Assembly: GCA_030429345.1 (NCBI GenBank)
Contig: JAUIFJ010000021.1
Location: forward strand, 21,616 to 85,615
Length of the DNA stretch: 64,000 nt
Reading direction: 5' to 3'
DNA from: a bacterium
Lineage (GTDB): Bacteria > CAIWAD01
A model generated the notes under the pieces. The model searched no databases. It was not told the origin of the DNA and worked only from the letters and a program-made list of their open reading frames with translations. Of this stretch, positions 13,326 through 39,303 are shown one piece after another (the first letter of the stretch is position 1; every line of letters begins with the position of its first letter). The translations under genes were made by a program, and so were the position numbers.

Positions 13326-15547
13326 GAGCGCCCTCCTTGGCCTTCTTCTCCCTGTGGCGTCTCTTCAGGAGGCGCGCTTTCCTGCGGCTCGTCGCCGGCA
13401 GGATCCTGCGGCTCGTTTCCGGCGGGGGCCTGCTCGAAGGGCGTTTCCTGCCCCGGGGGCGTCACTTCGCCGCTCAGCAGGCCGTGAATCTGATCCAGGT
13501 AGTTCTCGAGTTCCTTGATCCGCTCGTCCAGGTCTTCCAGTTCCTCGAAACGGATCTCGCCCAGCACGAGGCGCGAAAAGGCCAGGTTCGACCAATGCGG
13601 CAGGTCGCTGCTGAAGGGCGCCTGGCGGCGGGCTTCCGTGCCGACGCGCCAGCGGTCCATCCGGTTCTGCAGCCGGCTGAAACGCTGGGCCAGCACCTGT
13701 TCGTCGAGGCCGGTGCTGTTTTGCGGCTCCTCGTCCAGCGAGCTACGCGTCTCCACGATCTGCCCGAGCTCGACCTGGGTGCCGAAAATCAGGCTGTCGA
13801 TGGTGGCCTTGGCCATCTGGTGCTTATTCTCGCGCAGCACCACCGGGTTGCGGCGGATCTCGATCAATCCGGCGACGCGGATCTTGCCCATCAGGCTCTG
13901 GACCTGGTCGCGCAGGTTGAGGTAGTTCAGCTCGGTTTCGGCGGACCAGTTCTCCCGGGGGCCCGAGAAGCGGTCCATCTGCTCGCGCAGCTGCAGGATC
14001 AGCTTGCGCTCGTCGATGTAGTCGCCCATGCTCTGGTTGGCCGTGGCCAGTTCCGCGTACTGCACCCGGCGGAAGACCTGCCGCGTCTGGTTGCGCAGGT
14101 CCAGGTAGTCGCTGTAGAGACTGCGGTCGCCGTCGACGAAGACCTGCTCCTCCATGCGCGAGAGCTGGCGGATCAGGCCGTGCACCTGGGCCTGCTCGTT
14201 CATCAGCACGCGCAGGTTCTCGCCGCGCTCGGCGTGATCCAGCACGATGCCGTACTGCTCGGCGCTGTTCTCAACGTCTTCCATCTTCTCGCTGGCATAG
14301 CCGGCCAGGGTCTTGGCTTCGTAGAGGTACTCGCTGTCCGGCATGTGATTCGCCAGTTCCAGGCTGCGGCGGTAGGCGTTGGCGTAGTCGCTCAGGCTGA
14401 GATCCGACCAGGCCTGGCCGATGAGGGCGTCGTCGTACCATTCGCTGCCCAGCTCGATCGAGTCGAACATGGCGGCGGCTTCCTCGAAGCGCCCTTCCTC
14501 GAAGTAGAGGTGTCCCAGCTTGACGTGCACATCCTCCTTCAGATAGCCCACGTCGCTGAAGCCTTCGCCTTCCAGGGACTGCTCGAGCAGGCCCTCGAAC
14601 AAGGCAATGGCCTTGGAATACTCCGTGTTGAGAATGAAGCACGTACCCAGCAGGTGGCGCGAGCGATAGTAGTAGTCCGAGCCCGGCGGCAGCTGCGAAA
14701 GAATCGCGATGGCGTCCTCGATGCGATCCAGCTGGAAGTGGACGATGCCCATCATGTAGGCCGTCTCCCAGTCGCGCCCGGCCTCTCCGCGCTCATGCTC
14801 GTTGAAGTCGTTGAGCGCCGTCTGGAACTGGCCGAAATAGGTGTCCACGTAAATAAGGTGGCGCAGGGCGGTCTCGCGGTACTCGCTGTCCGGATGATTG
14901 CGCAGCAGGCGACGGTAGAGCAGCGCGGCCTGGTGATACAGGTTCTCCGCGAAGCAGCTTTCGGCCTCGAAGAACAGCAGGTCGTCCACGTTGCGGTAGG
15001 GGTAGGACTGGCGGATCTTGCCCAGCAGGCGGGCGCTCAGTTCGTAGTCGCTGTGGGCGTACTGCAGCACGGCCTGGCGCAGTTCCCATGAGAACTGGCG
15101 CGCCTCTTCCTCGTCGGAAAGGGCGGCCAGCAGGCCCTCGCGCAGCTGGCCGGCGAGCATCAGCCGGTAGACCAGGTCGGCGCGCTGGCTGTGGATCCAG
15201 TAGTGCACGCGTTCGCCGGGTTCCGCGTCCTCGGGCAGTTCGGGCAGGCCTTCCAGCACCTGTTCCTGCAGCAGGTCGCGGATTGCCTGGGCATCGAAGG
15301 CGCCGGCGGCTCCGGGAAACTCCAGGCAATGGTGAATGCTGCGAAGTTCCCAGGTCAGCTGCTTCTCGAGCAGCAGCAGTTCCCGGTTGAAACGCTGCAC
15401 CGCTTCGGCCAGGTAGGCGCGACGGGCCTCGTCGAAGTCGGGATCCGTGAGAGCGGCCGCTTCCAGGCGGAGTGGCACAAAGCCAATCCACCCGAACAGA
15501 CACAACAGGCCGATGCGGGAAAGGATCGAAATGGAGCTGCGCTTCAT
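13322..15547 (-). CDS. Exported TPR-repeat protein, first gene of the ExbBD operon
   Basis: About 741 residues. The start at 15547 is preferred because it opens a signal peptide (MKRSSISILSRIGLLCLFGW...LEA) with AAGGA close upstream; the longer frame to 15757 has no such support. The body has TPR-like repeats (ELSARLLGKIRQSYPYRNVDDLLFFEAES, HQAALLYRRLLRNHPDSEYRETALR, KLGHLYFEEGRFEEAAAMFDSI, each a different repeat). The C-terminal tail from about 690 is rich in Pro, Glu and Gln and looks disordered. It is followed without a gap by the second TPR gene, so the whole set down to the TonB-like gene is probably one transcript. Confidence 0.78.
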   Translation of the reverse strand: MKRSSISILSRIGLLCLFGWIGFVPLRLEAAALTDPDFDEARRAYLAEAVQRFNRELLLLEKQLTWELRSIHHCLEFPGAAGAFDAQAIRDLLQEQVLEGLPELPEDAEPGERVHYWIHSQRADLVYRLMLAGQLREGLLAALSDEEEARQFSWELRQAVLQYAHSDYELSARLLGKIRQSYPYRNVDDLLFFEAESCFAENLYHQAALLYRRLLRNHPDSEYRETALRHLIYVDTYFGQFQTALNDFNEHERGEAGRDWETAYMMGIVHFQLDRIEDAIAILSQLPPGSDYYYRSRHLLGTCFILNTEYSKAIALFEGLLEQSLEGEGFSDVGYLKEDVHVKLGHLYFEEGRFEEAAAMFDSIELGSEWYDDALIGQAWSDLSLSDYANAYRRSLELANHMPDSEYLYEAKTLAGYASEKMEDVENSAEQYGIVLDHAERGENLRVLMNEQAQVHGLIRQLSRMEEQVFVDGDRSLYSDYLDLRNQTRQVFRRVQYAELATANQSMGDYIDERKLILQLREQMDRFSGPRENWSAETELNYLNLRDQVQSLMGKIRVAGLIEIRRNPVVLRENKHQMAKATIDSLIFGTQVELGQIVETRSSLDEEPQNSTGLDEQVLAQRFSRLQNRMDRWRVGTEARRQAPFSSDLPHWSNLAFSRLVLGEIRFEELEDLDERIKELENYLDQIHGLLSGEVTPPGQETPFEQAPAGNEPQDPAGDEPQESAPPEETPQGEEGQGGRS

Positions 15548-16161
15548 CGTTTCCTTCGTTCCTGGACTGCTCAACGCGCTGAAAGGACGCAAAAGGAGTG
15601 CGCCTCTTTCAATGCCTGCGCCGGTCTGCGAAGACCGGTCGGCTCGAATCGAAACGGGGATCCGGAATGTTCGGAACTCACGGCCTCCCCTTCCTGGACA
15701 AGAATCGCTGTGTCTCCTGAAGGCCGTCCTCGGTGTCTTCCGCTTTCCTTGCGGCAAAACGGAATAACGAGTGTATCGTCAGACCGACACCGGGACTGAA
15801 GACGGACTACCTGCCGCGACCCGGAACCGAAAACGCCACTTCTGTCAGGATATGGCGCAATCTGTCAAGCGGCACTCGCACCAACGCGGAAGCGGCAGTC
15901 GAAGCTGCGCTTCGGTCGACGAATCAGCCTTGCACAAGGGGGAGCACCCCCAGGAAACCGGGCTCTTCCGGAAGCCCAGCCTCCGGGATTCGGTGAATCT
16001 ACTGATTTTAATGCTGTTGCAGGAAGGGTCTCATCGGCCCCGATCGGGTTTTTCTTGGGAATCCTCTCCCATGCCGCATCGAACACGAATTGAACACGAG
16101 TCGAATCGCAGTCCAACACCTGTAGGGGACATTCGGGTCTTGTTTCCGAACAGGATCCTTC
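15548..16161. other. Divergent intergenic region between the TPR operon and the porin gene
   Basis: About 610 bases between two divergently transcribed units, so promoters for both should lie here. I found no strong consensus promoter. A short palindrome CCCGATCGGG followed by TTTTTC near 16040 is terminator-like on the plus strand. Short open frames crossing the region show no domain or signal peptide. Confidence 0.5.
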
Positions 16162-17312: not shown

Positions 17313-18710
17313 ATGAGAACCGCTTGCTGTCTCCCCCTGTTGCTGCTGCTGGGATGCGTGGCCGACGACGCCGACGAGACCGCGCTGGGCACCAGCCTGG
17401 TGATCAACGAGTTCCTGGCCAGCAACGATTCGCAGGGCAGCGACGAGCAGGGCGAGTTCGACGACTGGGCCGAACTCTACAATGCCGGCGACGAGCCCTT
17501 CGAGCTGCACGGACTGTACTTCAGCGACAACCTGGGCGACCCGCGCAAACACCAGATCATCGACCCGGGGGCCGTGCTGATGCCTGGGGAGTACGTGCTG
17601 ATCTGGTGCGACAGCCAGCCCGAGCAGGGACCGTATCACACGTCCTTCAACCTGAGCGCCTCCGGGGAGGACATTGTGATCACCAGCGCCGGGGGACAGG
17701 CCCTGGACGCGATCACCTTCGGGGCGCAGACCACGGATGTCTCGCTGGGACGCTCCCCCGACGGAAGCGGCAACTGGATCGAGTTCGCCCTGCCGACACC
17801 CGGAGCGAGCAACGAGGAGGCGGAGCCGGTCTTCGAGGCGAGACTGGTGCTCAACGAGATCCTTGCCGACAACGGCGGCTGCTGCCCCGACGAACACGGC
17901 GATTTCGACGATTACATCGAGCTGCGCAACATCGGCAACGCCCCGGCGCTGCTCAACGGCCTGGCCCTGAGCGACGATGCCGCCCTGCCGGAGCTCTTCC
18001 TGTTGAGCCTGCCCGCCGACAGCAGCCTCCCGCCCGGCGAACGCTGTGTCTTTTGGTGTGACGACCAGGGCGAGCAGGGGCCGTTCCACACGCCCTTCGG
18101 CCTCTCGCGCAACGGCGAGAGCCTCTGGCTGCGACACGGCAGCCAGGCGGATTCGGTGGTCTTCCCCGCCCTGGCCGCGGACGAGGCCTGGGGCCGTCAC
18201 CCGGCCACCCATTCCTGGATGGCCATGCAGTCGCCGACCCCCGGGCAGGAGAACCTCCCTGCGGCGGGCAGCACGCCCGGGGGACTGCTGATCAACGAGT
18301 ACCTCGCTTCCAACGATTTCTGCTGCAGCGACGAGAACGGCGAATTCGACGACTGGATCGAGGTATACAACAGCGGAAACGCGCCTGTCCCGCTGAACGG
18401 CCTCTTCCTGAGCGACGACGGCGCGGAACCGCTCAAGCACCAGGTGGAGATTCCCGGCGACAGCCTGCTGCCTCCCGGAGGCCATGCGGTCTTCTGGTGT
18501 GATTCACAGGTCAGCCAGGGGCCCTTCCACTGCGGCTTCGCCCTGAGCGCCGGAGGCGAGCAGATCCGCCTGAGCGCGGCGGACGGCACCCTGCTCGACA
18601 GCCGCGACTACGATACCCAGACCACGGATGTCAGCGAGGGGCGCAGCCCCGACGGGAGCGACAGCTGGACGAACTTTGTCACACCGACACCGGGAGCAGC
18701 GAACGAATGA
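17313..18710 (+). CDS. Lipoprotein with three lamin-tail domains
   Basis: 465 residues. A lipoprotein signal with lipobox LLGC ends at Cys 15. Three tandem lamin-tail domains (LTD) of about 140 residues each follow, beginning near 29, 177 and 327. Each has the NEFLASND or NEILADNG start, the DDWxELYN strand, a PGEYVLIWCDSQPEQGP-like middle and an end at TPTPGASNE or similar. Repeats 2 and 3 contain a vicinal Cys pair (GGCCPDEHG, DFCCSDENG). LTD modules are usually extracellular binding or attachment domains. Unlike the next LTD protein it has no sorting tail, so it is probably anchored by lipid. Its stop overlaps the next start (ATGA). Confidence 0.85.
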   Translation: MRTACCLPLLLLLGCVADDADETALGTSLVINEFLASNDSQGSDEQGEFDDWAELYNAGDEPFELHGLYFSDNLGDPRKHQIIDPGAVLMPGEYVLIWCDSQPEQGPYHTSFNLSASGEDIVITSAGGQALDAITFGAQTTDVSLGRSPDGSGNWIEFALPTPGASNEEAEPVFEARLVLNEILADNGGCCPDEHGDFDDYIELRNIGNAPALLNGLALSDDAALPELFLLSLPADSSLPPGERCVFWCDDQGEQGPFHTPFGLSRNGESLWLRHGSQADSVVFPALAADEAWGRHPATHSWMAMQSPTPGQENLPAAGSTPGGLLINEYLASNDFCCSDENGEFDDWIEVYNSGNAPVPLNGLFLSDDGAEPLKHQVEIPGDSLLPPGGHAVFWCDSQVSQGPFHCGFALSAGGEQIRLSAADGTLLDSRDYDTQTTDVSEGRSPDGSDSWTNFVTPTPGAANE

Positions 18711-19441
18711 GCCGATACTGGATCCCCCTTCTCCTGCTGGCCCTGTCGGCCTGCCGCGACGGGCATCAGGAACCGGGCAGCGCGGCCTGGGAACTGCTGG
18801 CCCAGTACCCGCTGAGCGTGCCCGAGCCTTCGGGCCTCTGCCTGGACCGGGAAAGCGGGTCCCTGTATACGGTGAGCGACGAGACCGGGCTGGTCTACCG
18901 CATGGACCTGGAAGGCCATGTGCTCCAGACCCTCTCCTGGACCGGCGACGATCCGGAAGGCATCTGCATCGATCCCCGCGACGGCAGCCTCTGGGTGGTC
19001 GTCGAAAGGCGGCGGCAGCTGGTGCGCCTCAGCCGGGCCGGCAGCGAACTGGAGCGCTGGAACATGGACCTGCCGGGTGCCGCCAACAGCGGCCTGGAAG
19101 GGGTCGCTGTCGAACCGGATGGCCACGCCCTTGTGGTACAGGAGAAGGACCCCGGCCAGCTGCTGCGCTGGCTGCCGGGCGAGGCCGAGCTGGAAGTGCA
19201 TCCGCTCGACTTTGCCAGGGACTACTCGGGACTGTGCCACGACCCGGAGCGGAACCGGCTCTATGTGCTTTCCGACGAGAGCGAGATCCTGGTCCGCCTG
19301 GACGCCGGGGGCATCGAGAAGCGCTGGGACCTGGGCCTGCGCCGCCTGGAAGGCGTCGCCATCGACGGAGACATCGCCTACCTGGTCAGCGACGCCCTGG
19401 CGCGTCTCTTCGTGATCCAACTGCACGAACACACGGAATAA
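18707..19441 (+). CDS. SdiA-regulated-type beta-propeller lipoprotein
   Basis: 244 residues. Lipobox LSAC follows a short hydrophobic leader (MSRYWIPLLLLALSAC). The rest consists of repeated propeller blades (PSGLCLDRESGSLYTVSDETG, DPEGICIDPRDGSLWVVVE, LEGVAVEPDG, LEGVAIDGDIAYLVSDA). The spacing and the EG(I/V)AV/D phrases match the SdiA-regulated (phytase-like/esterase-like) propeller family. Catalytic activity is not established for most members, so I assign no reaction. The ATG overlaps the stop of the upstream LTD gene, which suggests joint translation. Confidence 0.78.
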   Translation: MSRYWIPLLLLALSACRDGHQEPGSAAWELLAQYPLSVPEPSGLCLDRESGSLYTVSDETGLVYRMDLEGHVLQTLSWTGDDPEGICIDPRDGSLWVVVERRRQLVRLSRAGSELERWNMDLPGAANSGLEGVAVEPDGHALVVQEKDPGQLLRWLPGEAELEVHPLDFARDYSGLCHDPERNRLYVLSDESEILVRLDAGGIEKRWDLGLRRLEGVAIDGDIAYLVSDALARLFVIQLHEHTE

Positions 19442-19485
19442 ACAATACAGCACCATCCTGGATGCTGGACAGAGTGGAGACGCAG

Positions 19486-21162
19486 ATGCGCGGAATGTTA
19501 TTCCTGCTGCTGGGCCTGGCGTACTCGGCCGCGGCGCAGACCCTCGTGATCAACGAGTTCCTGGCTTCCAATTCGGCCCACGGCGCCGACGAGGCCGGCG
19601 AGTACGACGACTGGGTCGAGATCTATAATCCCGGCAGCGAGGCCGTCGACCTGGCCGGCCTCTGGTTCTCCGACACGGAAGGGATTGCCGGCACGCAGAT
19701 TCCCTTCGGCCAGCCCGAGCTGACGACGGTTCCCGCCGGCGGCTTCAAACTGGTCTGGTTCGACGAGGACCTGGACCAGGGCCCGCTGCACGTGGACGAC
19801 AAGCTGAGCGCCGGCGGCGAGGCGATCGTGATGCTCGCCGAGGACAGCCTGACCGTGATCGACAGCTATGTCTTCGAGGAACAGGACACGGACATCAGCG
19901 AGGGACGCAGCACGGACGGCGGCGAGACCTGGGACTTCTTCAACCTGCCGACCCCGGGCATCAGCAATACGGAATCACCATTGCCCGAGCTGAAGATCAA
20001 CGAGTTCCTGGCTTCCAATGTCAGCGGCATCCAGGACGACGACGAGGAATACGAGGACTGGCTGGAGATCTACAACGCCGGCGCATGGGCGGTGGACCTG
20101 GCGGGGTATCACGTCTCGACCAGCATGGGCAATACCGGCACGATGGTGCCTTCCGGCCAGCCCCTGCTGACGACCGTACCCGCCGGCGGCTTCCTGCTGC
20201 TCTGGATGGACGGGGAAACGGAGGAAGGCCTGACCCACATGGGGAACACGCTGAGCAGCGCCGGCGGCAGCATCGTGCTCTGGGCGCCCGACGGCGAGAC
20301 CGTCATCGACAGCTACAGCTACGAGGACCAGGACAACGACGTCAGCGAGGGACGGAGCAGCGACGGGGGAGCCGACTGGACCTTCTTCAGCTCTCCCACG
20401 CCCGGCGAATCCAATGGCGGCCCGCTCATGCAGACGCTCTGGATCAATGAGTACCTGGCCTCCAATGACTTCTGCTGCACGGACGAGAATGGTGAATATG
20501 ACGACTGGGCCGAGGTCTACAATCCCGGTCCCGACCCGGTCGACATGGCCGGCCTCTGGTTCAGCGACGACGCCAGCGAGCCGGCAACCCAGATTCCGGA
20601 GGGTTTTCCCGAGCTGACCGTCGTGCCGCCCGGAGGCTTCGCCGTGCTCTGGTTCGACGAGCAGCCCGAACAGGGGCCCTTGCACATCGACTCCAAACTG
20701 AGCGGGGACGGTGAGACCGTGGCCATGTTCCACCCGAACGGCGTGATCATGGAGGCCGTCGACTACGGCCCGCAGGTGACCGACCAGAGCGAGGGCCGTG
20801 AGACAGACGGCGGCGAGAGCTGGGTCTTCTTCCCCATGCCGACGCCCGGCGCCAGCAACCAGGCCACGGCCATCCACGCCGCTCCGGCGAGGCCGCAGGC
20901 CTTCGGCCTGGGCGCGGCCTATCCCAATCCCTTCAATCCCGCGACGACCGTGCGCTTCCGCCTGGCGGAAGCCGGCATGAGCGCTCTCCGCGTATACGAC
21001 CTGCAGGGAGCCCTGGTGCAGCGGATCGAGCTGGGTCCGCTCCCCGTCGGCGAGCACCGGCAGACACTGACCCTGCCGGCGGCGGCCGCTTCCGGACTGT
21101 ACCTGCTCGAGCTGCACAGCGGACAGATGCGTGATACGCAAAAGATCCTGTTGCTGAAATAG
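19486..21162 (+). CDS. Secreted lamin-tail-domain protein with NPFN sorting tail
   Basis: 558 residues. The start at 19486 is chosen because it begins a signal peptide (MRGMLFLLLGLAYSAAAQ) and has GGAG at a normal distance; the frame is open further upstream but only as a shadow of the propeller gene. Three LTD repeats begin at NEFLASNS, NEFLASNV and NEYLASND. The third has a vicinal Cys pair (DFCCTDENG). The last 85 residues form a FlgD-like tail from YPNPFNPATTV to DTQKILLLK. It is predicted to be secreted and held on the cell surface. Confidence 0.82.
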   Translation: MRGMLFLLLGLAYSAAAQTLVINEFLASNSAHGADEAGEYDDWVEIYNPGSEAVDLAGLWFSDTEGIAGTQIPFGQPELTTVPAGGFKLVWFDEDLDQGPLHVDDKLSAGGEAIVMLAEDSLTVIDSYVFEEQDTDISEGRSTDGGETWDFFNLPTPGISNTESPLPELKINEFLASNVSGIQDDDEEYEDWLEIYNAGAWAVDLAGYHVSTSMGNTGTMVPSGQPLLTTVPAGGFLLLWMDGETEEGLTHMGNTLSSAGGSIVLWAPDGETVIDSYSYEDQDNDVSEGRSSDGGADWTFFSSPTPGESNGGPLMQTLWINEYLASNDFCCTDENGEYDDWAEVYNPGPDPVDMAGLWFSDDASEPATQIPEGFPELTVVPPGGFAVLWFDEQPEQGPLHIDSKLSGDGETVAMFHPNGVIMEAVDYGPQVTDQSEGRETDGGESWVFFPMPTPGASNQATAIHAAPARPQAFGLGAAYPNPFNPATTVRFRLAEAGMSALRVYDLQGALVQRIELGPLPVGEHRQTLTLPAAAASGLYLLELHSGQMRDTQKILLLK

Positions 21163-21176
21163 AAAAAGGGGACACA

Positions 21177-23528
21177 ATGAAAGGACATGGAATGAAGCAT
21201 TTGCTTTGCCTGACCGCCCTGGTCGCGGCCTCGACGGTCCGTGCCGATGTGGTGATCAACGAGATCCACTACAATCCCGGCGCCGGCCTGGATGACGCGA
21301 ACTACGAGTGGTTCGAGCTGCACAACACCGGCGGAAGCTCCGTCGACCTGAGCGGCTGGAGCATCACCGACGACGTGCCCGCCGGCCACAGCGCCGTGAC
21401 ACACACCTTCGCCGGCGGCACTACGATCGCCGCGGGCGGCTACCTGGTGGTCGGCAGCAATCCTTCCGCCGTCGAGAGCTTCTACGGCATCAGCGGCGTG
21501 ATCCTCTGGGACAGCGGCGCGCTGGACAATGGCGACGACCCGATCGTGCTGCGCGACGCCGCGACGACCATCGTCGACCAGGTCTACTACCTGGACGACA
21601 GCGGCTGGCCCACGGCCTGCGACGGCGACGGCCCGAGCCTCGAACTGATCAACCCCGAGCTGGACAACGACAACTTCGCCGCCTGGGATGCCAGCGCCGT
21701 GGATCACGGCACACCCGGCGCCGCCAACAGCGTCTACACCAGCGACGCCGAGCCCGTCGCCGGCAACCTCTTCCACAGCCCGCAGAACCCGGGCACGGGC
21801 CAGATCGTCACGATCAACGTCGATGTCACCGACGACCAGGGCGTGAGCCAGGTGCTGTTGCGCTTCAATCCCGGCACGAGCGACCAGGCCGTGCTGATGT
21901 CGAACGGCGGCAGCGGTGACACTTGGACCGGCTTCATCGGCCCCTTCGCCGAGGGCAGCCTGGTCAGCGTGGCCATCGAGGTCACCGACAGCGGCAACCA
22001 GACGGTGACCTACCCCGGCCAGCTCAACACGGACGACTCCTACTTCTTCTACGTGACCGACAGTCCGCTGGCGGACGGCGACCTGGTCTTCAGCGAGTTC
22101 CAGTATACGGACGCCTGCTTCGGCAACCTGGACTGGGTCGAGCTCTACAACAACACGGCGGCCGCCATCGAGCTGGGCAGCTTCCAGTTCAAGGACGACC
22201 AGGACGATCACATCTTCGAGATTCCCGGCGGCACGACGATCGACGCCGGAGCCTACCTGGTGCTCGCCCAGGACGCGGCCCAGCTGACGCTGGACTACGG
22301 GGTCACGAACGTGGTCGGGGACATCGAGAACGGCCTGGGCAGCGGCGGCGACGCCCTGCGCCTCTTCGACATCAACGGCAACCTGCTGGACGCCGTGTAC
22401 TACGAGGTCGGCGTTAACGACTGGCCCGACGGCACGGTCGGCAACAGCGTGAGCCTGATCGACGTCAGCAGCGACAACAGCCTGGGCGCTTCCTGGGAAC
22501 TGAGCACCGCTCCCTGCGGCAGCCCCGGCGTGGCCAATGATGTAGACATCTTCGCCCCCTCCGTGCTCAGCGCCGGCGTGATCAACGACACCACCATCGA
22601 GCTCAGCTTCGACGAGGAGATGGATCCGGTCACCGCCGAGACCCTTTCCAACTACTCGCTGAGCGGCAATGCCTGCACCTCGGCCAGCCTGGTCGACCCG
22701 ATGACCGTCGAGCTGCAGTTCGGCATCCCCATCGGCCTGGGCTACTATGTGCTGCATGTGGAAAATGTCGAGGACCTGGCGGGCAATGCCGTTCCGGCCA
22801 GCGACATCTCCATCGCCTACGCCACGGCGGACGCCGTCGTGATCACCGAGATCCTGCAGAATCCCAGCGTCGACGACGACTTCGGCGAGTGGTTCGAGCT
22901 CTACAATCCCGGTGCGAGCCCGGTCAACCTGCGCGGCTGGATTCTCAGGGACTACGACACGGACAGCCACGTGATCAGTCCCGACGCCGACCTCTTCGTG
23001 ATGCCCGGCGAGTTCTTCGTGCTCGGCCGCAGCGGGGATACGACCTTCAACGGCGACTACGCGCCGGACTATGTCTACGGCGACGAGTTCCAGCTGGCGA
23101 ATGGTGCCGACGAGATCCAGCTGCTGGCAGGCCTGACCGTGATCGACGAATGCGCCTACGACGGCGGCAGCGAGTGGCCCGATCCCAACGGCATCTCCAT
23201 GGAGCTGATGGCCATTGGCCTGGACAACAATGTGGGCGCCAACTGGGGCGAAGCGACGACCGCCTTCGGCCTGGGCGACCTGGGCACGCCCGGTGCCTTC
23301 AACAGCATCTGGAGCCTGGAGGCTCCCGTGCTGACGATCACCTTCAGCGATCCCGACATCGAGCTCGACTGGAACGCCGTGCCTTTCGCCGCCGACTACC
23401 AGGTGCTGGTCTCCGATGGCCTGGGCCTGCCCTTCAGCGAGCTGGCCGTGACCACGGACACCTTCTACAGCTTCCCCGCCGGTCCTGCCGGCAGCGTCAA
23501 GCTCTACCAGGTGCTGCCGCGGCAGTAG
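21177..23528 (+). CDS. Secreted multi-domain LTD protein without sorting tail
   Basis: 783 residues from the ATG at 21177; a second ATG at 21192 (MKHLLCLTALVAASTVRA) gives a cleaner signal peptide, and both have a ribosome site. LTD domains begin at NEIHYNPGAG (about 25), FSEFQYTDAC (about 305) and TEILQNPSVD (about 560). A bacterial Ig-like segment at about 460-550 (LSAGVINDTTIELSFDEEM) and a fibronectin-like C-terminus (DIELDWNAVPFAADYQVLVSD) complete the protein. There is no NPFN tail, in contrast to the gene before it. It lies 14 bases after that gene and is followed by a strong terminator. Confidence 0.8.
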   Translation: MKGHGMKHLLCLTALVAASTVRADVVINEIHYNPGAGLDDANYEWFELHNTGGSSVDLSGWSITDDVPAGHSAVTHTFAGGTTIAAGGYLVVGSNPSAVESFYGISGVILWDSGALDNGDDPIVLRDAATTIVDQVYYLDDSGWPTACDGDGPSLELINPELDNDNFAAWDASAVDHGTPGAANSVYTSDAEPVAGNLFHSPQNPGTGQIVTINVDVTDDQGVSQVLLRFNPGTSDQAVLMSNGGSGDTWTGFIGPFAEGSLVSVAIEVTDSGNQTVTYPGQLNTDDSYFFYVTDSPLADGDLVFSEFQYTDACFGNLDWVELYNNTAAAIELGSFQFKDDQDDHIFEIPGGTTIDAGAYLVLAQDAAQLTLDYGVTNVVGDIENGLGSGGDALRLFDINGNLLDAVYYEVGVNDWPDGTVGNSVSLIDVSSDNSLGASWELSTAPCGSPGVANDVDIFAPSVLSAGVINDTTIELSFDEEMDPVTAETLSNYSLSGNACTSASLVDPMTVELQFGIPIGLGYYVLHVENVEDLAGNAVPASDISIAYATADAVVITEILQNPSVDDDFGEWFELYNPGASPVNLRGWILRDYDTDSHVISPDADLFVMPGEFFVLGRSGDTTFNGDYAPDYVYGDEFQLANGADEIQLLAGLTVIDECAYDGGSEWPDPNGISMELMAIGLDNNVGANWGEATTAFGLGDLGTPGAFNSIWSLEAPVLTITFSDPDIELDWNAVPFAADYQVLVSDGLGLPFSELAVTTDTFYSFPAGPAGSVKLYQVLPRQ

Positions 23529-24820: not shown

Positions 24821-25981
24821 CTACGTTCCGCTTCCCATGCCCAGCCAGGCGGCGACGATGTTGATCATCATTTCGCTTGTGCCGGAATAGATCTTGCCGC
24901 CGATGGCGTCGCGCAGGACGCGCTCGACCTTGTACTCGGTGGTGAAGCCGTAGCCGCCGTGGATCTGGATGCAGCGCTCGGCGGCGTCGACGAAGGCTTC
25001 GCTGACGAAGAGCTTGGACAAGGCGGCGTCCTGTGAGACGCTGCGGCTCTTCTCCAGCCGGTCCGCGCTGCGGTAGACCATCAGGCGGCTGCTTTCCAGG
25101 TGCGCCTTGATGCGTGCCACATGCTCGCGGATCGCCGGGTAGCGCTCGATGGGGCGGCCGAACTGGCTGCGCGTGCGGGCGTAAGTCGTCGCCGTTTCCA
25201 GCAGGCGCTCCATGGCGCCCACGTGGATCGCCGAGAGCAGGGCCCGCTCCCAGTCCATGCTGTGGGTGAACATCGTCGCGCCGGCGCCTTCGCCACCCAG
25301 CATGTTCGCCGCGGGCACGCGGGCCTCCTGGAAACTGATCTCCCCGAAGGGCGAGGTGCGAATGCCCATCTTCTCGATCTTGCGGCTGCAGCTCACGCCG
25401 GGGGTGTCCATTTCGACGATGAAACAGCTCACGCCGCCGTGAAAGCCCTTCTCCGCGTCGGTCAACGCGAAGGCGACGAAGAGGTCGGCCACCGGCGCGT
25501 TGGTGATGAAGATCTTGTTCCCGGTCAGGACATAGTGCTCGCCGTCCTTCTCGGCCTTCGTCGTCATGGCGAAGGCGTCGGAACCCGTATTCGCCTCGGT
25601 CATGGCGTTGGAGGCGATCAGCGATCCGTCACACAGGCCGGGCAGGTATTTCCGCTTCTGCTCCTCCGTGCCGAACTTGTCAATGGGCACGGCGCAAGGC
25701 AGCATGTGGGCGCAGAGGCTGAAGAGCAGCCCGCCGTCCCAGCAGCCCTGGCCCAGGGCCTCCAGGGCGATCGCCGTCGACAGAGGGTCCAGTCCCCCGC
25801 CGCCGTACTCCTCGCTGACGGCGAGTCCGGGAATGCCCATCTCGCCCATCTTCTTCCACAGGTCGGCGGCGAAGACCTGCTCGCGGTCGCGGCTCTCCAG
25901 GTCGTCGTTCAGCTCCTGGCGCGCGAACTTGAGCAATGTCTCACGCAGGCTCTTCTGTTCTTCGGTGTACTCCAGGATCAT
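24821..25981 (-). CDS. Acyl-CoA-dehydrogenase-like flavoprotein, proposed prolyl-carrier-protein oxidase
   Basis: 386 residues from the ATG at 25981, which overlaps the ligase stop as ATGA. FAD-binding signatures of the acyl-CoA dehydrogenase fold are present: MTEANTGSD (127-135), NKIFITNA (155-162), RTRSQFGRPI and QIHGGYGFTTEY. The Glu of the common IYEGT motif, the base in medium-chain enzymes, is Ser here (S366 in KIYSGTSE). A Glu is kept in MDWER (E245), the position used by isovaleryl-CoA dehydrogenase. Flavoproteins that oxidise prolyl-carrier protein to pyrrolyl-carrier protein (PltE/RedW/CloN3/Bmp3) are relatives of this type. Context with a proline-type ligase and carrier supports that role; an ordinary acyl-CoA dehydrogenase is the alternative. 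Confidence 0.75.
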   Translation of the reverse strand: MILEYTEEQKSLRETLLKFARQELNDDLESRDREQVFAADLWKKMGEMGIPGLAVSEEYGGGGLDPLSTAIALEALGQGCWDGGLLFSLCAHMLPCAVPIDKFGTEEQKRKYLPGLCDGSLIASNAMTEANTGSDAFAMTTKAEKDGEHYVLTGNKIFITNAPVADLFVAFALTDAEKGFHGGVSCFIVEMDTPGVSCSRKIEKMGIRTSPFGEISFQEARVPAANMLGGEGAGATMFTHSMDWERALLSAIHVGAMERLLETATTYARTRSQFGRPIERYPAIREHVARIKAHLESSRLMVYRSADRLEKSRSVSQDAALSKLFVSEAFVDAAERCIQIHGGYGFTTEYKVERVLRDAIGGKIYSGTSEMMINIVAAWLGMGSGT

Positions 25982-27546
25982 GCAAGTCTCTCCTTCAGGC
26001 CCTGGTAATCGGTCTTGTCGGTGGAGGTCTTCGGCAGGCTGTCGAAGAAATGGAAGTCGTCGGGGATCATGTAGGACAGCAGGTTCTTCGCGCACCATCC
26101 CTTGAGGGCGATGATCGAGAGCCTCTCTCCGCTGCGGGTCGCCAGGCAGGCGCTGATGCGCACCTCGCCCTGGTCATTGGTCCGCGCCAGCACGGCGACC
26201 TCGCGCAGGTCCTCGTGCCGGTGCAGGGTGGCCTCGATCTCGCCCAGCTCGACCCGGTAGCCGCGCTTCTTGACCATGCGGTCGCGCCGGCCGGCGAAGA
26301 GCAGTTCGCCGTCCCCCGGATCACGAACCACGTCGCCCGTGTTGTACCAGCGTCGGCCGTCGATCTCGACGAAGGCCTGCGCGTCCAGCTGCGGCGCTTT
26401 CCAGTAGCCGCTCATCACGCCGGGTCCGTCGATCAGCAGCAGGCCCTCCTCCCCGGGCGTCACGGGGCGGTTGTCGTGATCCACGATCAGCGAGTCGTAG
26501 TGGGCGCAGACCCCACCGATCGGGTAGGGCGTATCACGGCTGTCGCCCTCCGGCCCCGGCAGGCGGTGCGCCGTGCAGACATTGGTCTCCGTCGGCCCGT
26601 AGAGATTCCAGTACTCCGGCTTCGGCAGCAGCTCGCGCAGCCGGCGCAGCTGCTGGATCGGGAAGACCTCGCCGGCGAAATTGACCAGGCGCAGCGCGCT
26701 GGTGTCCTGCTCGGCCAGGTTGCCGTAGTCCAGCATCAGGCTGAGGATCGAGGGAGTCGAATACCAGCAGGTAATGCCCTCGTCCTCCAGCAGCTCGCAG
26801 AGGCGGATCGGGTTCTTGCCGTCCTCCTCGCCGATCAGGTGCAGGCTGGCTCCGTGCAGCAGGGGCACATAGATGTCCAGGATGCTGAGGTCGAAATGAA
26901 AGGGCGCGTGGGAACTGAAACGGTCCTTCGGCGTCGGCGCGAAGGTCCGCGCGCACCAGTCGATGAAGGCCAATGCGGCCTGCTGGCTCACCTGGACGCC
27001 CTTGGGGTCCCCCGTGCTGCCGGAGGTATACAGGATGTAGGCCAGGTCCTGCGGATCCCGCGGCGTGGCAGGCTCCGTGCGCCCCCGCGGCGTGACACGG
27101 TGATCCGTCAGCAACTGCGGCAGGCTGGTCTCGCTGTCGGGGTTGACGCCGATGATCCGTGCGCGGTGTCCCAGTTCCTCGAGAGCCAGGCGCAGGTCCT
27201 CGACCCGGTGGGTCTGGCAGATGATCGTGTGGACCTCGCAATCACGGAAGATCCAGGCGGCGCGCTCGATCGGTCCGCCGGCGTCGACGGGCACATGGAC
27301 CGCCCCCAGCTTCTGCGCCGCGAAGAGGAAGGCCAGCGACTCCAGGGACTTGGGCAGGCAGATGCCCAGCCGTTCCCCGTTGAGCAGGCCGCCCTTGTAG
27401 AGCAGTTCCGCGCAGCGATCGACTCCGAGCACGAACTCGGCGTAGTTGGCTTCCCGGTCGCGGGCCGTGTCCCGAACGGCCAGCTCGTGGGGTGAAAGAC
27501 GGCCGCCCGCCTCGAGGCAGGCGTGCAGGGTGGCGGGTGCAGCCAT
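25978..27546 (-). CDS. Stand-alone amino-acid adenylation enzyme, proposed L-prolyl-AMP ligase
   Basis: 522 residues of the adenylate-forming family. The P-loop YTSGSTGDPKG lies at 173-183, followed by YGPTE (316-320), YNTGD (401-405) and the final catalytic Lys in TSTDKTDY (K511). Placing the nine specificity positions by eye against GrsA gives D219, L220, L223, Y262, N289, A291, L315, V323, C324. As I recall the PltF/RedM/CouN4 proline code (D-L-L-Y-L-A-L-V-C), this differs at one position. DltA (D-alanine ligase) has Cys where A291 is, so I do not call it DltA. It should load the adjacent carrier protein. Two bases separate it from the carrier gene, and it overlaps the dehydrogenase start. 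Confidence 0.82.
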   Translation of the reverse strand: MAAPATLHACLEAGGRLSPHELAVRDTARDREANYAEFVLGVDRCAELLYKGGLLNGERLGICLPKSLESLAFLFAAQKLGAVHVPVDAGGPIERAAWIFRDCEVHTIICQTHRVEDLRLALEELGHRARIIGVNPDSETSLPQLLTDHRVTPRGRTEPATPRDPQDLAYILYTSGSTGDPKGVQVSQQAALAFIDWCARTFAPTPKDRFSSHAPFHFDLSILDIYVPLLHGASLHLIGEEDGKNPIRLCELLEDEGITCWYSTPSILSLMLDYGNLAEQDTSALRLVNFAGEVFPIQQLRRLRELLPKPEYWNLYGPTETNVCTAHRLPGPEGDSRDTPYPIGGVCAHYDSLIVDHDNRPVTPGEEGLLLIDGPGVMSGYWKAPQLDAQAFVEIDGRRWYNTGDVVRDPGDGELLFAGRRDRMVKKRGYRVELGEIEATLHRHEDLREVAVLARTNDQGEVRISACLATRSGERLSIIALKGWCAKNLLSYMIPDDFHFFDSLPKTSTDKTDYQGLKERLA

Positions 27547-27548
27547 GG

Positions 27549-27797
27549 CTAGCCCTTTCGGGATTCGACGAAGGCAACGATCCGGTCAATGGTGTCCAGG
27601 TGCTCGGCGCCGACCTCGTGGGCGGCGAACTCGACTCCGTAGCTGTCCTCCAGGAAGGTGACCAGCTTCAGGGTCGCCAGCGAATCGAGGATCCGGCTGC
27701 TGACCAGCTCGACATCATCGGTCAGCGATTCGGCGGGCTCTCCGGGCAGGAATTCCTTGAGGATGAATTCGCGGATCTCTTCACGCATCTCGGCCAT
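27549..27797 (-). CDS. Stand-alone carrier protein (PCP/DltC-like)
   Basis: 82 residues from the ATG at 27797, chosen because it overlaps the upstream stop as TGATG and has GGAGAG just before it; a start four codons earlier (27809) is possible. The phosphopantetheine attachment Ser is S39 in ILDSLATLKL, within the four-helix carrier pattern (LTDDVEL, FLEDSYGVEF, TIDRIVAFVE). It resembles the small carriers paired with DltA or PltF and is distinct from the fatty-acid AcpP at 49010. It is proposed to hold the amino acid for oxidation and for transfer by the MBOAT protein. No phosphopantetheinyl transferase is seen in the window. Confidence 0.85.
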   Translation of the reverse strand: MAEMREEIREFILKEFLPGEPAESLTDDVELVSSRILDSLATLKLVTFLEDSYGVEFAAHEVGAEHLDTIDRIVAFVESRKG

Positions 27798-30307
27798 CAG
27801 TCTCTCCATATCTTGTTTGCATCACGTCTGAATTCGTCGTACAGGCGCTCGGCGACCATGCGGTGGCCTACCGCCGAGGGATGGTCGTCCCAGGGCTTGA
27901 CCCACAGCTCTTCCGGCTCCGGTCCGGCGTATACGCCGGCCAGGTCGATCACCGGGCGACCCGTGGCGCGGGCCGTGGCGACGACCTCTTCCCAGCTCAT
28001 CTGCAGCTTGTGCTCCAGCAGCAGGGGCACGAAGAGGAAGACCAGCTTCTGCTCCCTTTCGGCGCAGAGCTCGCTCATGCGGCCGAAGATCCAGCCAAGC
28101 AGTTCCTGCTCGAAGGGCCGCAGGTGGCGGATCGCGGCGCTCTCCTCCATGCCTGGCCGGGCTCCGGCCCGTTCGACCAGTTCGTCCAGCCAGGGGTGGG
28201 GCAGCGGGACTTCGCGCTCGAGCAGCCAGGCCAGGCGATCGACGCCGTGCTTGCCGTCGATGATGTGTCCCACGTAGACCACGTTGTCGGCGTGGAAGCG
28301 GGGCACCTGGTCCTCGAGCACGGCCAGGATGTCGAGGGGCGTATAGCCCTCGACGCCGAAATTGAGGATCTCGAAGGGGGTACCGCTCTCGTTGACCTTC
28401 TTCTCCAGCAGGGACTCGAAGTCGTCTTCCTGTGCCACACCGCTGCCGTAGAGGTGGGAGGCGCCGATCCAGGCCGAGCGCCGGGTTCCCTCCGCCGGTC
28501 GCGCGGCATAGTCCAGGTCCCGCAGTCCCTCGCTGTTGACGCGCACCTGGACGCCCTTGTGGCGCTGTTCCGTGTTCGGCACCAGCTTGAGGAAGGGCAG
28601 GCCGTCGACCGGCTCGGACAGAATGCTCTTCTTCAGCGAGACCCAGTCGGCGGGCTTCTGCTGGAAGACCTCGTTCAGCTGGGGATTGTCCCAGCCCACA
28701 TCGTTCAGCTTCTCGTAGTAGTCCCTCTGGCGGCGCATCTTGTCGCGGTCGTTGAGCACCGGGCTCTTCACCTGGTGGACCAGGTCGCGCGCCTCCTGGG
28801 GAAAGCGGTTGTATACGGCCGGGTAGCCGATGGCGAAGAGCAGCGCCAGCATGCCGCCCGTGCGCAGCGCTTCCTGCCAGAAGGGGCGATGGGGCGGCTT
28901 GTTGTAGAGGAAGTAGAGGCCGGCCAGGAAATGGATCACGATGCCCGCGGCGACCAGGGCGACGATGCCTCCCCCGCCGGGCTCGATCCGTCCGGCCATG
29001 CTGAAGAGGCTGGCCCACTCGCGCACCGAATCCGTGATCCACATGGACCACAGCACGCAGATCGTCAGGAAGACGCCCGTGGTCTTCACCGCGATGCGCG
29101 CCTTGACCTTCAGGCCGCCGCGGCTTTCCTGCAGCCGCTGCAGCGGGGTCTTCTTCTCCTCGAGCACCACGTTGACCGCGACCAGGGCGCAGAGCACGAC
29201 CCAGAAAAGGATGTCGTGCGTCGCCAGCAGGAATTCGCCGCGGATCCAGAACCAGAGCCAGGCGTGGAAGAACCAGGTGGCGAAGAAGACCCAGACCGTT
29301 CCCAGGACCAGCGCCTGGGTATTGCCGTACTTGCGCAGGCGGAAAAAGGCCGGATAATAGAAGACCTTCAGCATGAAGTCCTTCCAGTAGATGTTGATCC
29401 GGCGCCAGAAATCGGTGAAGCTGCTGGCCAGGTAGAAGAGATGATGCGTTTCCGGCAGGTTGTAGCCGAAGATGCGCACAAGGCCGATCACCAGGTGGAA
29501 CTGCCCGCTGACATTCAGGTAGAGCAGGAAGGGCCAGCTCAGGTAGCGCAGCAGGCTGCCCAGGCCGATCACGTCCGTGGTGTCGATGGGCGCGTGCTGA
29601 TAGATCAATCGATACAGAATGAGCTGCAAGACGCCGCGGGCGATCCAGGACATGCCTTCCTGGACGTCGCGGGCCTTCTTCTCCGGCTTGCCCTGGCTGC
29701 GGACGAAGGTCTGGTAGTCCACGGAGGGAAAGAGCGGGAAGACCACATTGGGCACCATGAAGAAGTAGGCCAGTCGGTTGGGCCAGGTCACCGGCGCCGT
29801 CTTGTGGGATTGATCATAGAGGAAAATGATCATCCGGATCGAGAAGAGGGAGCCCAGGATCGGCCAGATCGCCCCCGACCAGGGGTGCTCGATGGCTCCG
29901 CCGCGCATGAAGGCCAGCAGCGTGATCGCCGCGCCGAGAATGCCCCAGCGCAGCAGGGCCGGGCCGGGGATGGCTGTCAAGGCGATCAGCCCGACTCCCA
30001 GTCCGAGCAGCCAGCCGCCGTGCAGCCAGCCGAAGACCAGCGGAAAACTGCCCATGGACAGCAGCACGAAGAGCCAGTGCTTGTAGCGTGGCGGGGTGAA
30101 ATAATGCAGGGCGAAACCGCCGAGCAGGTAGAAACTGAAGTGGTGGAAGATCTGCCCCTGCAGCTGGAAACTCCAGCCGGTCAGGTAGAGGGCAAGCGCC
30201 AGCTGGAACCAGAGAGCGCCGAATTTCAGCAGCTCCCCGATGCCGGGAAAGGCGTAAGAAGGGCGGTCGCCGCTTGCGGGCGGCGCCTGAGTGGGATTCG
30301 TGCTCAT
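27797..30307 (-). CDS. MBOAT acyltransferase fused to an SGNH-hydrolase-like domain (DltB-DltD-like fusion)
   Basis: 836 residues. About ten membrane segments in residues 28-500 include the MBOAT core: SSFTDFWRRINIYWKDFML at 295-313 and the putative catalytic H348 in FATWFFHAWLWF, as in DltB and alginate acyltransferases. A soluble part from about 505 to the end holds an SGNH/GDSL-type domain: IGASHLYGSG (614-623, nucleophile S617), ILNFGVEGY (647-655) and WDDHPSAVGH (806-815, catalytic H809). In the Dlt pathway these two activities are separate proteins (DltB and DltD). It is the first gene of the unit and would move the acyl group from the carrier across the membrane to an exported acceptor. 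The acceptor is unknown. Confidence 0.85.
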   Translation of the reverse strand: MSTNPTQAPPASGDRPSYAFPGIGELLKFGALWFQLALALYLTGWSFQLQGQIFHHFSFYLLGGFALHYFTPPRYKHWLFVLLSMGSFPLVFGWLHGGWLLGLGVGLIALTAIPGPALLRWGILGAAITLLAFMRGGAIEHPWSGAIWPILGSLFSIRMIIFLYDQSHKTAPVTWPNRLAYFFMVPNVVFPLFPSVDYQTFVRSQGKPEKKARDVQEGMSWIARGVLQLILYRLIYQHAPIDTTDVIGLGSLLRYLSWPFLLYLNVSGQFHLVIGLVRIFGYNLPETHHLFYLASSFTDFWRRINIYWKDFMLKVFYYPAFFRLRKYGNTQALVLGTVWVFFATWFFHAWLWFWIRGEFLLATHDILFWVVLCALVAVNVVLEEKKTPLQRLQESRGGLKVKARIAVKTTGVFLTICVLWSMWITDSVREWASLFSMAGRIEPGGGGIVALVAAGIVIHFLAGLYFLYNKPPHRPFWQEALRTGGMLALLFAIGYPAVYNRFPQEARDLVHQVKSPVLNDRDKMRRQRDYYEKLNDVGWDNPQLNEVFQQKPADWVSLKKSILSEPVDGLPFLKLVPNTEQRHKGVQVRVNSEGLRDLDYAARPAEGTRRSAWIGASHLYGSGVAQEDDFESLLEKKVNESGTPFEILNFGVEGYTPLDILAVLEDQVPRFHADNVVYVGHIIDGKHGVDRLAWLLEREVPLPHPWLDELVERAGARPGMEESAAIRHLRPFEQELLGWIFGRMSELCAEREQKLVFLFVPLLLEHKLQMSWEEVVATARATGRPVIDLAGVYAGPEPEELWVKPWDDHPSAVGHRMVAERLYDEFRRDANKIWRD

Positions 30308-30736: not shown

Positions 30737-31414
30737 TCAGGCGCCCTGCGCAAGGACCCCGCTGCCGTGTCCGCTGCTCCAGGCCTGGATGCGCTCCCAG
30801 TCGCGGTAGTCTCCTTCCGCCACGCCCATCAGGTTCATGATCCCCCGGATCAGCAGCCGGGTCGGGAGTCCCATGCGGGAGGTATCCAGCACGCCGGCAA
30901 AGGCCCCCACCTCTTCGGCCTTCACCCCGGGCAGTTGGTCGGCAATGTGGCCGGCGTAGCTCTCCGCTTTCCTCTGCGCGGCCGGTCCCTTGTGCGACAA
31001 GGTCAGGCAACTGAAGAATCCGGCCACATGACGCTCCTGCAAGGCCTCCCGGTGCCTGTGGGCAAAGACGCGCGCCTCTTTCATCCAGCGGTCGTATTGA
31101 ATCGGAGCCCCCAGCACGACGCAGGAGTAGGCATCGATGCTGTCGATTTCGGTCATGGGCGCCGTATGAACGATTCGCCCGGCATTGCGCAGGGTCAGCG
31201 CGATTCTCAAGGCGATTTCTTCGGTCGATCCGAAGGCGCTGGCCCAGGTCACCAGCCAGGAGTTTTCGGCAACCGCCTGGCGATCGACGGGGCCGGTCTC
31301 CAGGACTTCGGCGATTCCAGGCGCAAGCCCGGGAAAGGACAAGCCGGCCAGCCAGGCCGCCGCAGAGACCTGGAGGCTTCGGCCGATGAACTGGCGGCGG
31401 GAGAGACGTTGCAT
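30737..31414 (-). CDS. Tat-exported flavodoxin-domain protein (HemG-like)
   Basis: 225 residues. The N-terminus has a twin-arginine signal (LSRRQFIGRSLQVSAAAWLAG). The body is a flavodoxin-like domain: WASAFGSTEEIALRIA (the FMN phosphate loop, about 57-72), DAYSCVVLGAPIQYDRWMKE and VAGFFSCLTLS. Spacing of GAPIxYxxW resembles the HemG-type flavodoxin family. A Tat signal on such a domain is uncommon, since HemG proteins are cytoplasmic, so a redox role in the periplasm is possible. It is divergent from a TetR gene with two operators between them, so it is likely repressed by that regulator. Confidence 0.78.
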   Translation of the reverse strand: MQRLSRRQFIGRSLQVSAAAWLAGLSFPGLAPGIAEVLETGPVDRQAVAENSWLVTWASAFGSTEEIALRIALTLRNAGRIVHTAPMTEIDSIDAYSCVVLGAPIQYDRWMKEARVFAHRHREALQERHVAGFFSCLTLSHKGPAAQRKAESYAGHIADQLPGVKAEEVGAFAGVLDTSRMGLPTRLLIRGIMNLMGVAEGDYRDWERIQAWSSGHGSGVLAQGA

Positions 31415-31442
31415 GGCCGGGGACCCTTTCAGCGATAAGAAC

Positions 31443-31457
31443 TTGACACAGTGTCAA
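31443..31457. promoter_or_regulatory. TetR operator 1
   Basis: A perfect 6-3-6 palindrome, TTGACA-cag-TGTCAA, centred at 31450 in the divergent gap, 29 bases from the flavodoxin-like gene start. Its arms are identical to those of operator 2, and TetR-family dimers bind sites of this size. The TTGACA half could also serve as a -35 box. Confidence 0.72.
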
Positions 31458-31484
31458 TTGAACGGGCGCAAACATGGCGCTATC

Positions 31485-31499
31485 TTGACACCATGTCAA
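31485..31499. promoter_or_regulatory. TetR operator 2, overlapping the regulator start codon
   Basis: TTGACA-cca-TGTCAA centred at 31492, flanked by C and G that extend the palindrome by one base each side. It covers the ATG at 31493. The centre-to-centre distance to operator 1 is 42 bases, about four helical turns, placing both sites on the same DNA face and fitting cooperative binding and autoregulation. Confidence 0.72.
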
Positions 31500-32089
31500 G
31501 TCGAAATATTTCCACACGCGAAACAATCCTGCGGGCCGCCTGGCAGCTGCTGGAAGCCAACAGTGGCCAGGCGGTCCAGATGAAGGATATCGCCAGGCAG
31601 GCGGGTATCTCCCGTCAAGCCATGTACCTGCACTTCGCCTCAAGGCTGGAGCTGCTGAAGGCCACCCTGGCCTATATCGATCAGGAAAAGGGCCTGGAGC
31701 AAAGGCTGCGCCCCTTCGAGCAAGCCGGCAGCGGACGGGATCGGCTGCGCCTGGCGGTGGAGGTCTGGGGCAACTACATTCCCGAGATCCATGGAGTCGC
31801 CCGCGCCCTGGTCGACAGGCAGCCGGAGGACCAGGCGGCCCGCGCCGCCTTCGACGACTGCATGGCCTGCCTGCGGGAGGCCTGCATCACGACGATCGGC
31901 GACCTGCAGAACGAGCAGGCACTGCTTCCCGAATGGAACACGAGGCAGGCGGTAGATATCATGTATACACTGTTGTCCATCCGCAACTGGGAAATGCTGC
32001 GTCTGGAGTGCGGCTGGTCGCAGGAGCGCTATGTGCGGGGGCTTCTGCACACGCTGCAGCGAAGCCTACTGGTGGATCCCGCATCGTAG
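31493..32089 (+). CDS. TetR-family transcriptional regulator
   Basis: 198 residues from the ATG at 31493. The N-terminal HTH is clear: STRETILRAAWQLLEANSGQ, MKDIARQAGISRQAMYLHFASRLELLKATL. The C-terminal ligand domain is alpha-helical and of unknown specificity. No ribosome site precedes the ATG, which lies inside operator 2, so translation may be leaderless; an alternative GTG at 31451 lies inside operator 1. It probably represses itself and the flavodoxin-like gene. Confidence 0.85.
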   Translation: MSSRNISTRETILRAAWQLLEANSGQAVQMKDIARQAGISRQAMYLHFASRLELLKATLAYIDQEKGLEQRLRPFEQAGSGRDRLRLAVEVWGNYIPEIHGVARALVDRQPEDQAARAAFDDCMACLREACITTIGDLQNEQALLPEWNTRQAVDIMYTLLSIRNWEMLRLECGWSQERYVRGLLHTLQRSLLVDPAS

Positions 32090-34962: not shown

Positions 34963-37758
<2,796 letters not shown>

Positions 37759-37761
37759 CGA

Positions 37762-39303
<1,542 letters not shown>

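Follow-up and report, generated by a model that had tools for sequence, protein, structure and literature searches.

A predicted Dlt-like acylation cassette supplied with a proline-derived group

Within a 64,000-nucleotide stretch of a bacterial genome (GTDB lineage CAIWAD01; GenBank assembly GCA_030429345.1, contig JAUIFJ010000021.1, positions 21,616 to 85,615; here called the window, whose own numbering is used below), we identified four adjoining genes that probably form a self-contained, Dlt-like acylation cassette carrying a proline-derived group. All four lie on the minus strand, from 30307 down to 24821, and overlap or nearly touch, as an initial annotation of the window had described. 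They encode a fusion of a membrane-bound O-acyltransferase (MBOAT) with an SGNH domain (30307-27797; 836 amino acids), a small carrier protein (27809-27549; 86 amino acids, with a 13-base overlap with the acyltransferase gene), a stand-alone adenylation enzyme, or ligase (27546-25978; 522 amino acids, after a 2-base gap), and an acyl-CoA-dehydrogenase-like flavoprotein (25981-24821; 386 amino acids). The flavoprotein open reading frame (ORF) as listed (26098-24821; 425 amino acids) starts too early: its relatives have about 382 residues and an ATG matching position 25981, and this corrected start overlaps the stop codon of the ligase gene as ATGA.

In the pathway that we propose, the ligase would form prolyl-AMP and then load L-proline onto the holo-carrier, and the flavoprotein would oxidize the prolyl ring while it is bound to the carrier, most likely removing four electrons to give a pyrrole-2-carboxyl group. 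The MBOAT half would accept this group from the carrier on the cytoplasmic side and pass it through the membrane to a tyrosine, with Tyr530 and Tyr531 as candidates. The fused SGNH half would then esterify it onto an extracytoplasmic acceptor, which could be a polysaccharide, a lipid or a protein. The coupling of a proline-to-pyrrole module to a DltB-like acyltransferase, which the initial annotation had put forward, is supported by the ligase code, the oxidase phylogeny, the catalytic residues, the fold, a linkage that persists despite gene shuffling, the co-occurrence of the genes, and the existence of two oxidase lineages.

Ligase, carrier and oxidase

Aligned with PltF and PigI from the Protein Data Bank (PDB; entry 7thn, named in its record simply as L-proline--[L-prolyl-carrier protein] ligase and taken here to be PigI) and with 43 relatives, the window ligase has the specificity code D-L-L-Y-N-A-L-V-C, exactly the letters first read by eye. 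The proline code DLLYLALVC, which the initial annotation had cited, agrees with the published consensus of stand-alone L-proline ligases, L(L/F)YLALVC following an Asp (PMC3874040); the window ligase fits this consensus at eight of nine positions and 26 relatives at all nine. The code is exact in 26 of 44 cassette ligases, with the others differing almost only at GrsA positions 239 and 299, the latter being Phe in seven and Asn in three. Ligases from 11 further genomes follow the pattern DL[LF]Y[LNFC]ALVC, with L, N, F or C at position 299. The Asn299 of the window ligase is no obstacle, since CcbC, a proven L-proline ligase, has Cys there and modelling indicates that only 236, 301 and 330, with the invariant Asp and Lys, contact proline, 299 making no contact (PMC3874040). 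L-Proline is the expected ligase substrate because the cassette codes match the published consensus and 299 is modelled off the substrate, and from its code the window enzyme is predicted to be an L-proline:carrier ligase. It exceeds the NCBIfam cut-off for amino-acid adenylation domains (AA-adenyl-dom), its best single-domain PDB match is PltF (292 bits), and similarity in the core of the substrate pocket ranks PltF and PigI first among PDB entries, followed by DltA proteins.

The small carrier with a DSL serine, also claimed initially, is present, its phosphopantetheine Ser being S43. It matches PP-binding at E 0.002, its orthologs adjoin acyltransferase genes in relatives at 39-57% identity, and the genome of the window has one match to a phosphopantetheinyl transferase (PPTase) family. 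The nearest named family of the carrier, and its best NCBIfam model, is NF052616, the OlsHI ornithine-lipid carrier, at 97.1 bits versus a curated cut-off of 130. An OlsHI reading, prompted by this model, was set aside: the score is below the cut-off, the OlsHI paper (PMC12493201) is silent on MBOAT, SGNH, proline and "acyl carrier protein," and, unlike OlsHI, the cassette has no GH3-like OlsH gene.

The flavoprotein retains the catalytic Glu of prolyl oxidases (E245 within SMDWER, codon 25249-25247), as do the aligned cassette members, and this residue is essential in AnaB and Bmp3 (PMC10849742). At the Glu motif of acyl-CoA dehydrogenases, YEGT has become YSGT, while four acyl-CoA dehydrogenase paralogs of the same genome read E-G-T or E-G-S. 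Its best PDB matches are AnaB (353 bits, top), PltE and Bmp3 (6CXT; PMC10849742), with all acyl-CoA dehydrogenases ranking below. In an IQ-TREE phylogeny the cassette oxidases and AnaB, PltE and Bmp3 form one clade (100/100) apart from canonical dehydrogenases, which bears out the idea of a partner oxidase of this flavoprotein type; from sequence, the window flavoprotein is a predicted prolyl-carrier oxidase.

Inside that clade, the window oxidase belongs to a cassette-only group that spans many phyla and excludes AnaB (97/87), and four cassette oxidases from Myxococcota and a Microvirga megaplasmid group with AnaB (99/96). A single common clade of all cassette oxidases is rejected (approximately unbiased [AU] test, p 0.003, a value that is somewhat flattering as the tested grouping was prompted by an earlier tree). 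Two prolyl-oxidase lineages have been recruited to the same acyltransferase family, which is strong evidence that the oxidation reaction matters to this family. A first FastTree analysis had placed the main, window-type clade with PltE and Bmp3 (0.95); this placement was dropped, as the more careful IQ-TREE analysis leaves it open. A second kind of cassette, whose oxidase is AnaB-like, is seen at loci L041, L052, L057 and L082, the last on Microvirga sp. VF16 pMVF16-2 (locus 9293-15562), and its product in Myxococcota and on this alphaproteobacterial megaplasmid may be dehydroproline.

It is possible, though in our judgment unlikely, that the oxidase of the same cassette stops at two electrons, in which case a 1-pyrroline-carboxyl (dehydroprolyl) group would be transferred. 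The window oxidase scores best with the NCBIfam model of PigA, the enzyme that forms the prodigiosin pyrrole, the clade of this oxidase excludes AnaB, an ester of a cyclic imine would be fragile, and the halogenase-like neighbors described below suit an aromatic pyrrole better. PltE, RedW and Bmp3 are also described as four-electron oxidases (PMC10849742). On the other side, no PDB entry matches the window oxidase better than AnaB, which shares a well-supported clade with four cassette oxidases and makes carrier-bound dehydroproline, going by the title of reference 14 in PMC3874040. For the window enzyme we infer that oxidation to pyrrole is considerably likelier than a stop at pyrroline, and the two-electron stop may be the rule in the Myxococcota and Microvirga variant.

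Ligase and flavoprotein together also bear on whether the locus is a DltABCD variant that moves D-alanine, with the flavoprotein as an unrelated fatty-acid enzyme. The gene logic of ligase, carrier, MBOAT and SGNH is that of Dlt, and the MBOAT fold is nearest to DltB. However, the window ligase scores 255.9 bits against the cut-off of 559.85 of the DltA model TIGR01734, falling short of a D-alanine ligase, and its code is unlike that of DltA. The flavoprotein, moreover, is linked at 32 loci and belongs with the prolyl oxidases, from which the YEGT paralogs encoded in the same genome differ, and we regard D-alanine transfer as highly improbable.

The fused acyltransferase

An AlphaFold2 model of the fusion (40-sequence alignment; pLDDT 86, pTM 0.83), together with structure matches, places an MBOAT domain at about residues 42-433 (30184-29009, minus strand) and an SGNH domain at about residues 549-833 (28663-27809, minus strand). 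By Z, the membrane domain is closest to DltB (8jem, Z 20.6 over 367 residues; 6bug, Z 20.2), and PORCN and HHAT match it at Z about 18 (residues 42-470). Recognition of the MBOAT rests on structure because Pfam MBOAT (PF03062) has zero matches in the fusion protein, as well as in the whole genome. The SGNH assignment is supported by structure matches to 8a2n (Z 20.8) and to TesA of E. coli (Z 15.6) and by Foldseek, and Pfam Lipase_GDSL_2 (SGNH) is recognized in 31 of 41 relatives; searched against the PDB, a sequence profile of the fusion gave weak SGNH matches only. CgnD as the best SGNH match is read here as indicating the fold only. The initially proposed MBOAT-SGNH fusion is thus upheld by structure, not by the Pfam MBOAT model.

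His348 (codon 29264-29266), invariant in 86 of 86 aligned proteins, is the probable MBOAT catalytic residue by analogy with the catalytic His315 of PatA (PMC12148441). Also invariant are the SGNH nucleophile Ser617 (codon 28457-28459) and His809 (codon 27883-27881), and their partner Asp807 is kept in more than 90% of the aligned proteins. The linker between the last membrane helix and the SGNH domain contains an invariant YYExL (Tyr530-Tyr531, codons 28715-28720, with a nearly invariant Leu534), and residues 530-540 are the sole internal stretch of the model with pLDDT below 50. From alignment and model, this apparently mobile Tyr530/Tyr531 loop is a candidate acyl shuttle and resembles what such a shuttle would be expected to look like. 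A stretch A-V-Y-N-R-F near residues 497-502 was also considered as a shuttle motif and rejected, as it is not conserved.

Distribution and genomic context

The four-gene set of the initial annotation is conserved in related genomes. A scan of GTDB species genomes yielded 79 loci, drawn by similarity to the window acyltransferase and so favoring its close relatives. Acyltransferase, ligase and oxidase occur together at 32 of these, and all four genes are found at 23 of the 32 loci that have at least 4.5 kb on both sides. Gene orders include MCAD, CADM, CMAD and ADMC as well as divergent forms, so that the linkage survives at least five rearrangements of order or strand. Complete sets are present in Pseudomonadota, Acidobacteriota, Gemmatimonadota, Rhodothermota, Planctomycetota, Hydrogenedentota, Myxococcota, Calditrichota, Verrucomicrobiota and the window's own phylum; the cassette recurs in at least 10 bacterial phyla. 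Anaerolineae also possess the set, with an oxidase gene that lies at another place in the genome, and among the five scanned genomes of the window's phylum no other carries the cassette. Named cultured carriers are Pseudothauera rhizosphaerae, Paraglaciecola arctica, Methylomonas sp. SURF-2, Singulisphaera acidiphila and Microvirga sp. VF16.

In one family, represented by 199 genomes, eight genomes have the acyltransferase, these eight and one more (where the ligase lies near a contig end) have close ligase orthologs, and the same nine have oxidase orthologs (Fisher p 1.7e-13, common descent ignored). Of the eight loci that lack a neighboring oxidase, seven are in genomes with a prolyl-oxidase type elsewhere, which is why we do not favor the idea that such loci transfer plain proline. 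Similarly, of 20 genomes in which the acyltransferase stands alone, 11 encode the ligase elsewhere.

The Rhodothermota bins JAHQVL01 and JABDKO01 each encode four or five MBOAT-SGNH fusions and one ligase, as if one supply fed several acceptors, and suggest that a single supply module does so. The loci involved are L033, L045 and L060 in one genome and L048, L066 and L070 in another. In Singulisphaera/Isosphaeraceae (L068, L072 and L076), MBOAT and SGNH are separate ORFs beside the ligase, with the oxidase elsewhere and no carrier found adjoining the split ORFs.

In the window, the four-gene set is flanked by a flavodoxin-like protein upstream and a cupin downstream, followed by unrelated genes, so that it stands alone. 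The flavodoxin-like protein (30737-32089) has an N-terminal twin-Arg-like stretch and is divergent from a TetR regulator. Further away, consecutive genes on the plus strand (17313-23528) encode apparently secreted proteins in which lamin-tail (LTD) domains repeat, one of them with a C-terminal sorting-signal-like tail (about 20950-21162), and ordinary ATP synthase genes (alpha, gamma, beta and epsilon, in the usual order) occupy 34963-39303 on the minus strand.

Tailoring genes, acceptors and known systems

Flavin halogenases are used by pyrrole pathways, and CmlS-like, halogenase-type proteins with a WxWxIP motif adjoin the acyltransferase at three scanned loci (L040:10395-11786; L044:5055-7861, comprising two such proteins; L055:2980-4290), where a halogenated pyrrole decoration is possible. 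At two loci (L009:10505-17133; L018:4318-13458) the cassette is extended by a B12-radical-SAM protein and both subunits, alpha and beta, of a Rieske oxygenase, encoded inside or beside it; the two versions, one from a methanotroph and one from a betaproteobacterium, are 65-77% identical. According to work cited in PMC10849742, CloN6 is a methyltransferase acting on a pyrrole-2-carboxyl group. By analogy, the halogenase-like and B12-radical-SAM/Rieske neighbors support an aromatic intermediate, short of proof.

Other neighbors are scattered, comprising sugar-making, glycosyltransferase, carbamoyltransferase and XrtA-linked genes, three of them XrtA-system glycosyltransferases. Many cassettes are isolated; in Betaproteobacteria the four genes are alone amid housekeeping genes. 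By analogy with the MBOAT-SGNH family, the default acceptor would be an envelope polymer or lipid. The pyrrolyl group might instead end up in a small secreted natural product or lipid, the cassette then being a compact natural-product pathway with membrane-coupled transfer. The other known proline-pyrrole modules belong to secondary metabolism, L009 adjoins aryl-polyene-like ketosynthase genes, and tailoring enzymes are present at some loci. We nevertheless consider this doubtful: the conserved set has no condensing or peptide-assembly genes, the betaproteobacterial sets have the solitary setting just described, and the MBOAT-SGNH systems characterized in bacteria have envelope polymers as their acceptors (PMC12148441).

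Several observations count against a pyrrolyl-transferring envelope cassette. In the IQ-TREE phylogeny, the window oxidase has no supported placement in the branch of PltE and Bmp3 or in that of AnaB, and its NCBIfam scores fall short of the cut-offs of PigA (418 of 500 bits) and RedW (382 of 650 bits). The acyl-shuttle motif FXYXXF of DltX and PatA (PMC12148441) is absent from the aligned linker, which has just a Y-x-x-L half. Nine of the 20 lone-acyltransferase genomes have no close ligase, most of these being metagenome-assembled genomes (MAGs) and possibly incomplete. Finally, only a minority of loci have the putative halogenase and B12 tailoring enzymes, and across the scanned loci the neighboring genes point to no consistent acceptor.

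With DltABCD/DltX, the cassette shares a stand-alone amino-acid ligase, a small carrier, an MBOAT of the DltB fold with an invariant catalytic His (His348; Z 20.6 to 8jem), an SGNH transferase and, by prediction, ATP-driven thioester-to-ester transfer across the membrane. It differs in having a proline code instead of D-Ala and a prolyl oxidase, in its occurrence in many Gram-negative phyla, in an SGNH domain fused to the MBOAT rather than a separate DltD, and in the missing DltX-type FXYXXF. Because it has neither a D-Ala ligase nor a separate SGNH protein and FXYXXF, we set it apart from Dlt as a variant form of envelope acylation that relies on a carrier and an MBOAT. The MBOAT His, the SGNH Ser-His and outward transfer are features also of PatA-PatB and of the other O-acetylation systems of the MBOAT/SGNH type. 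However, MBOAT/SGNH pathways other than Dlt are described as having no carrier and an acyl-CoA donor, and fused SGNH domains as belonging with AT3, not MBOAT (PMC12148441); with its carrier and its MBOAT-SGNH fusion, the cassette departs from both statements.

Thiotemplated pyrrole modules (PltF-PltL-PltE, RedM-RedO-RedW, CloN4-N5-N3, PigI-PigG-PigA and Bmp4-1-3) have the same ligase code, a carrier and a Glu-bearing prolyl oxidase, with parallels in halogenase (pyrrole halogenases) and B12-radical-SAM tailoring (the CloN6 methyltransferase). In contrast to these, the cassette continues with MBOAT-SGNH and not with polyketide, peptide or soluble acyltransferase steps, and its oxidase lies in its own clade. 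The anatoxin-a starter module (AnaC, AnaD and AnaB) is alike in that AnaB is sister to the Myxococcota and Microvirga cassette oxidases, whereas its two-electron oxidation feeds a polyketide synthase.

The initial annotation knew of no described pathway of this form, and this held in the open-access literature, where we found no description of one; most subscription journals lie outside that coverage. We see the chances as evenly balanced that the cassettes represent an undescribed, phylum-crossing pathway in which pyrrole-2-carboxyl esters, some halogenated, methylated or hydroxylated, are set outside the membrane by a carrier-fed MBOAT-SGNH fusion that shuttles through a new tyrosine motif and that in some genomes occurs in several copies fed by one supply module.

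The compact cassette, present in at least 10 phyla and in cultured species, makes biochemistry and genetics feasible at once, and it offers a handle on how an MBOAT chooses a carrier over CoA. If the proposed pathway is true, the short list of acyl groups that bacteria are known to carry across their membranes (acetyl, D-alanyl and few others) would gain a heterocycle that is aromatic and made by redox chemistry, and research on envelope acylation would meet research on pyrrole natural products for the first time. A whole kind of bacterial surface decoration would then have gone undescribed.

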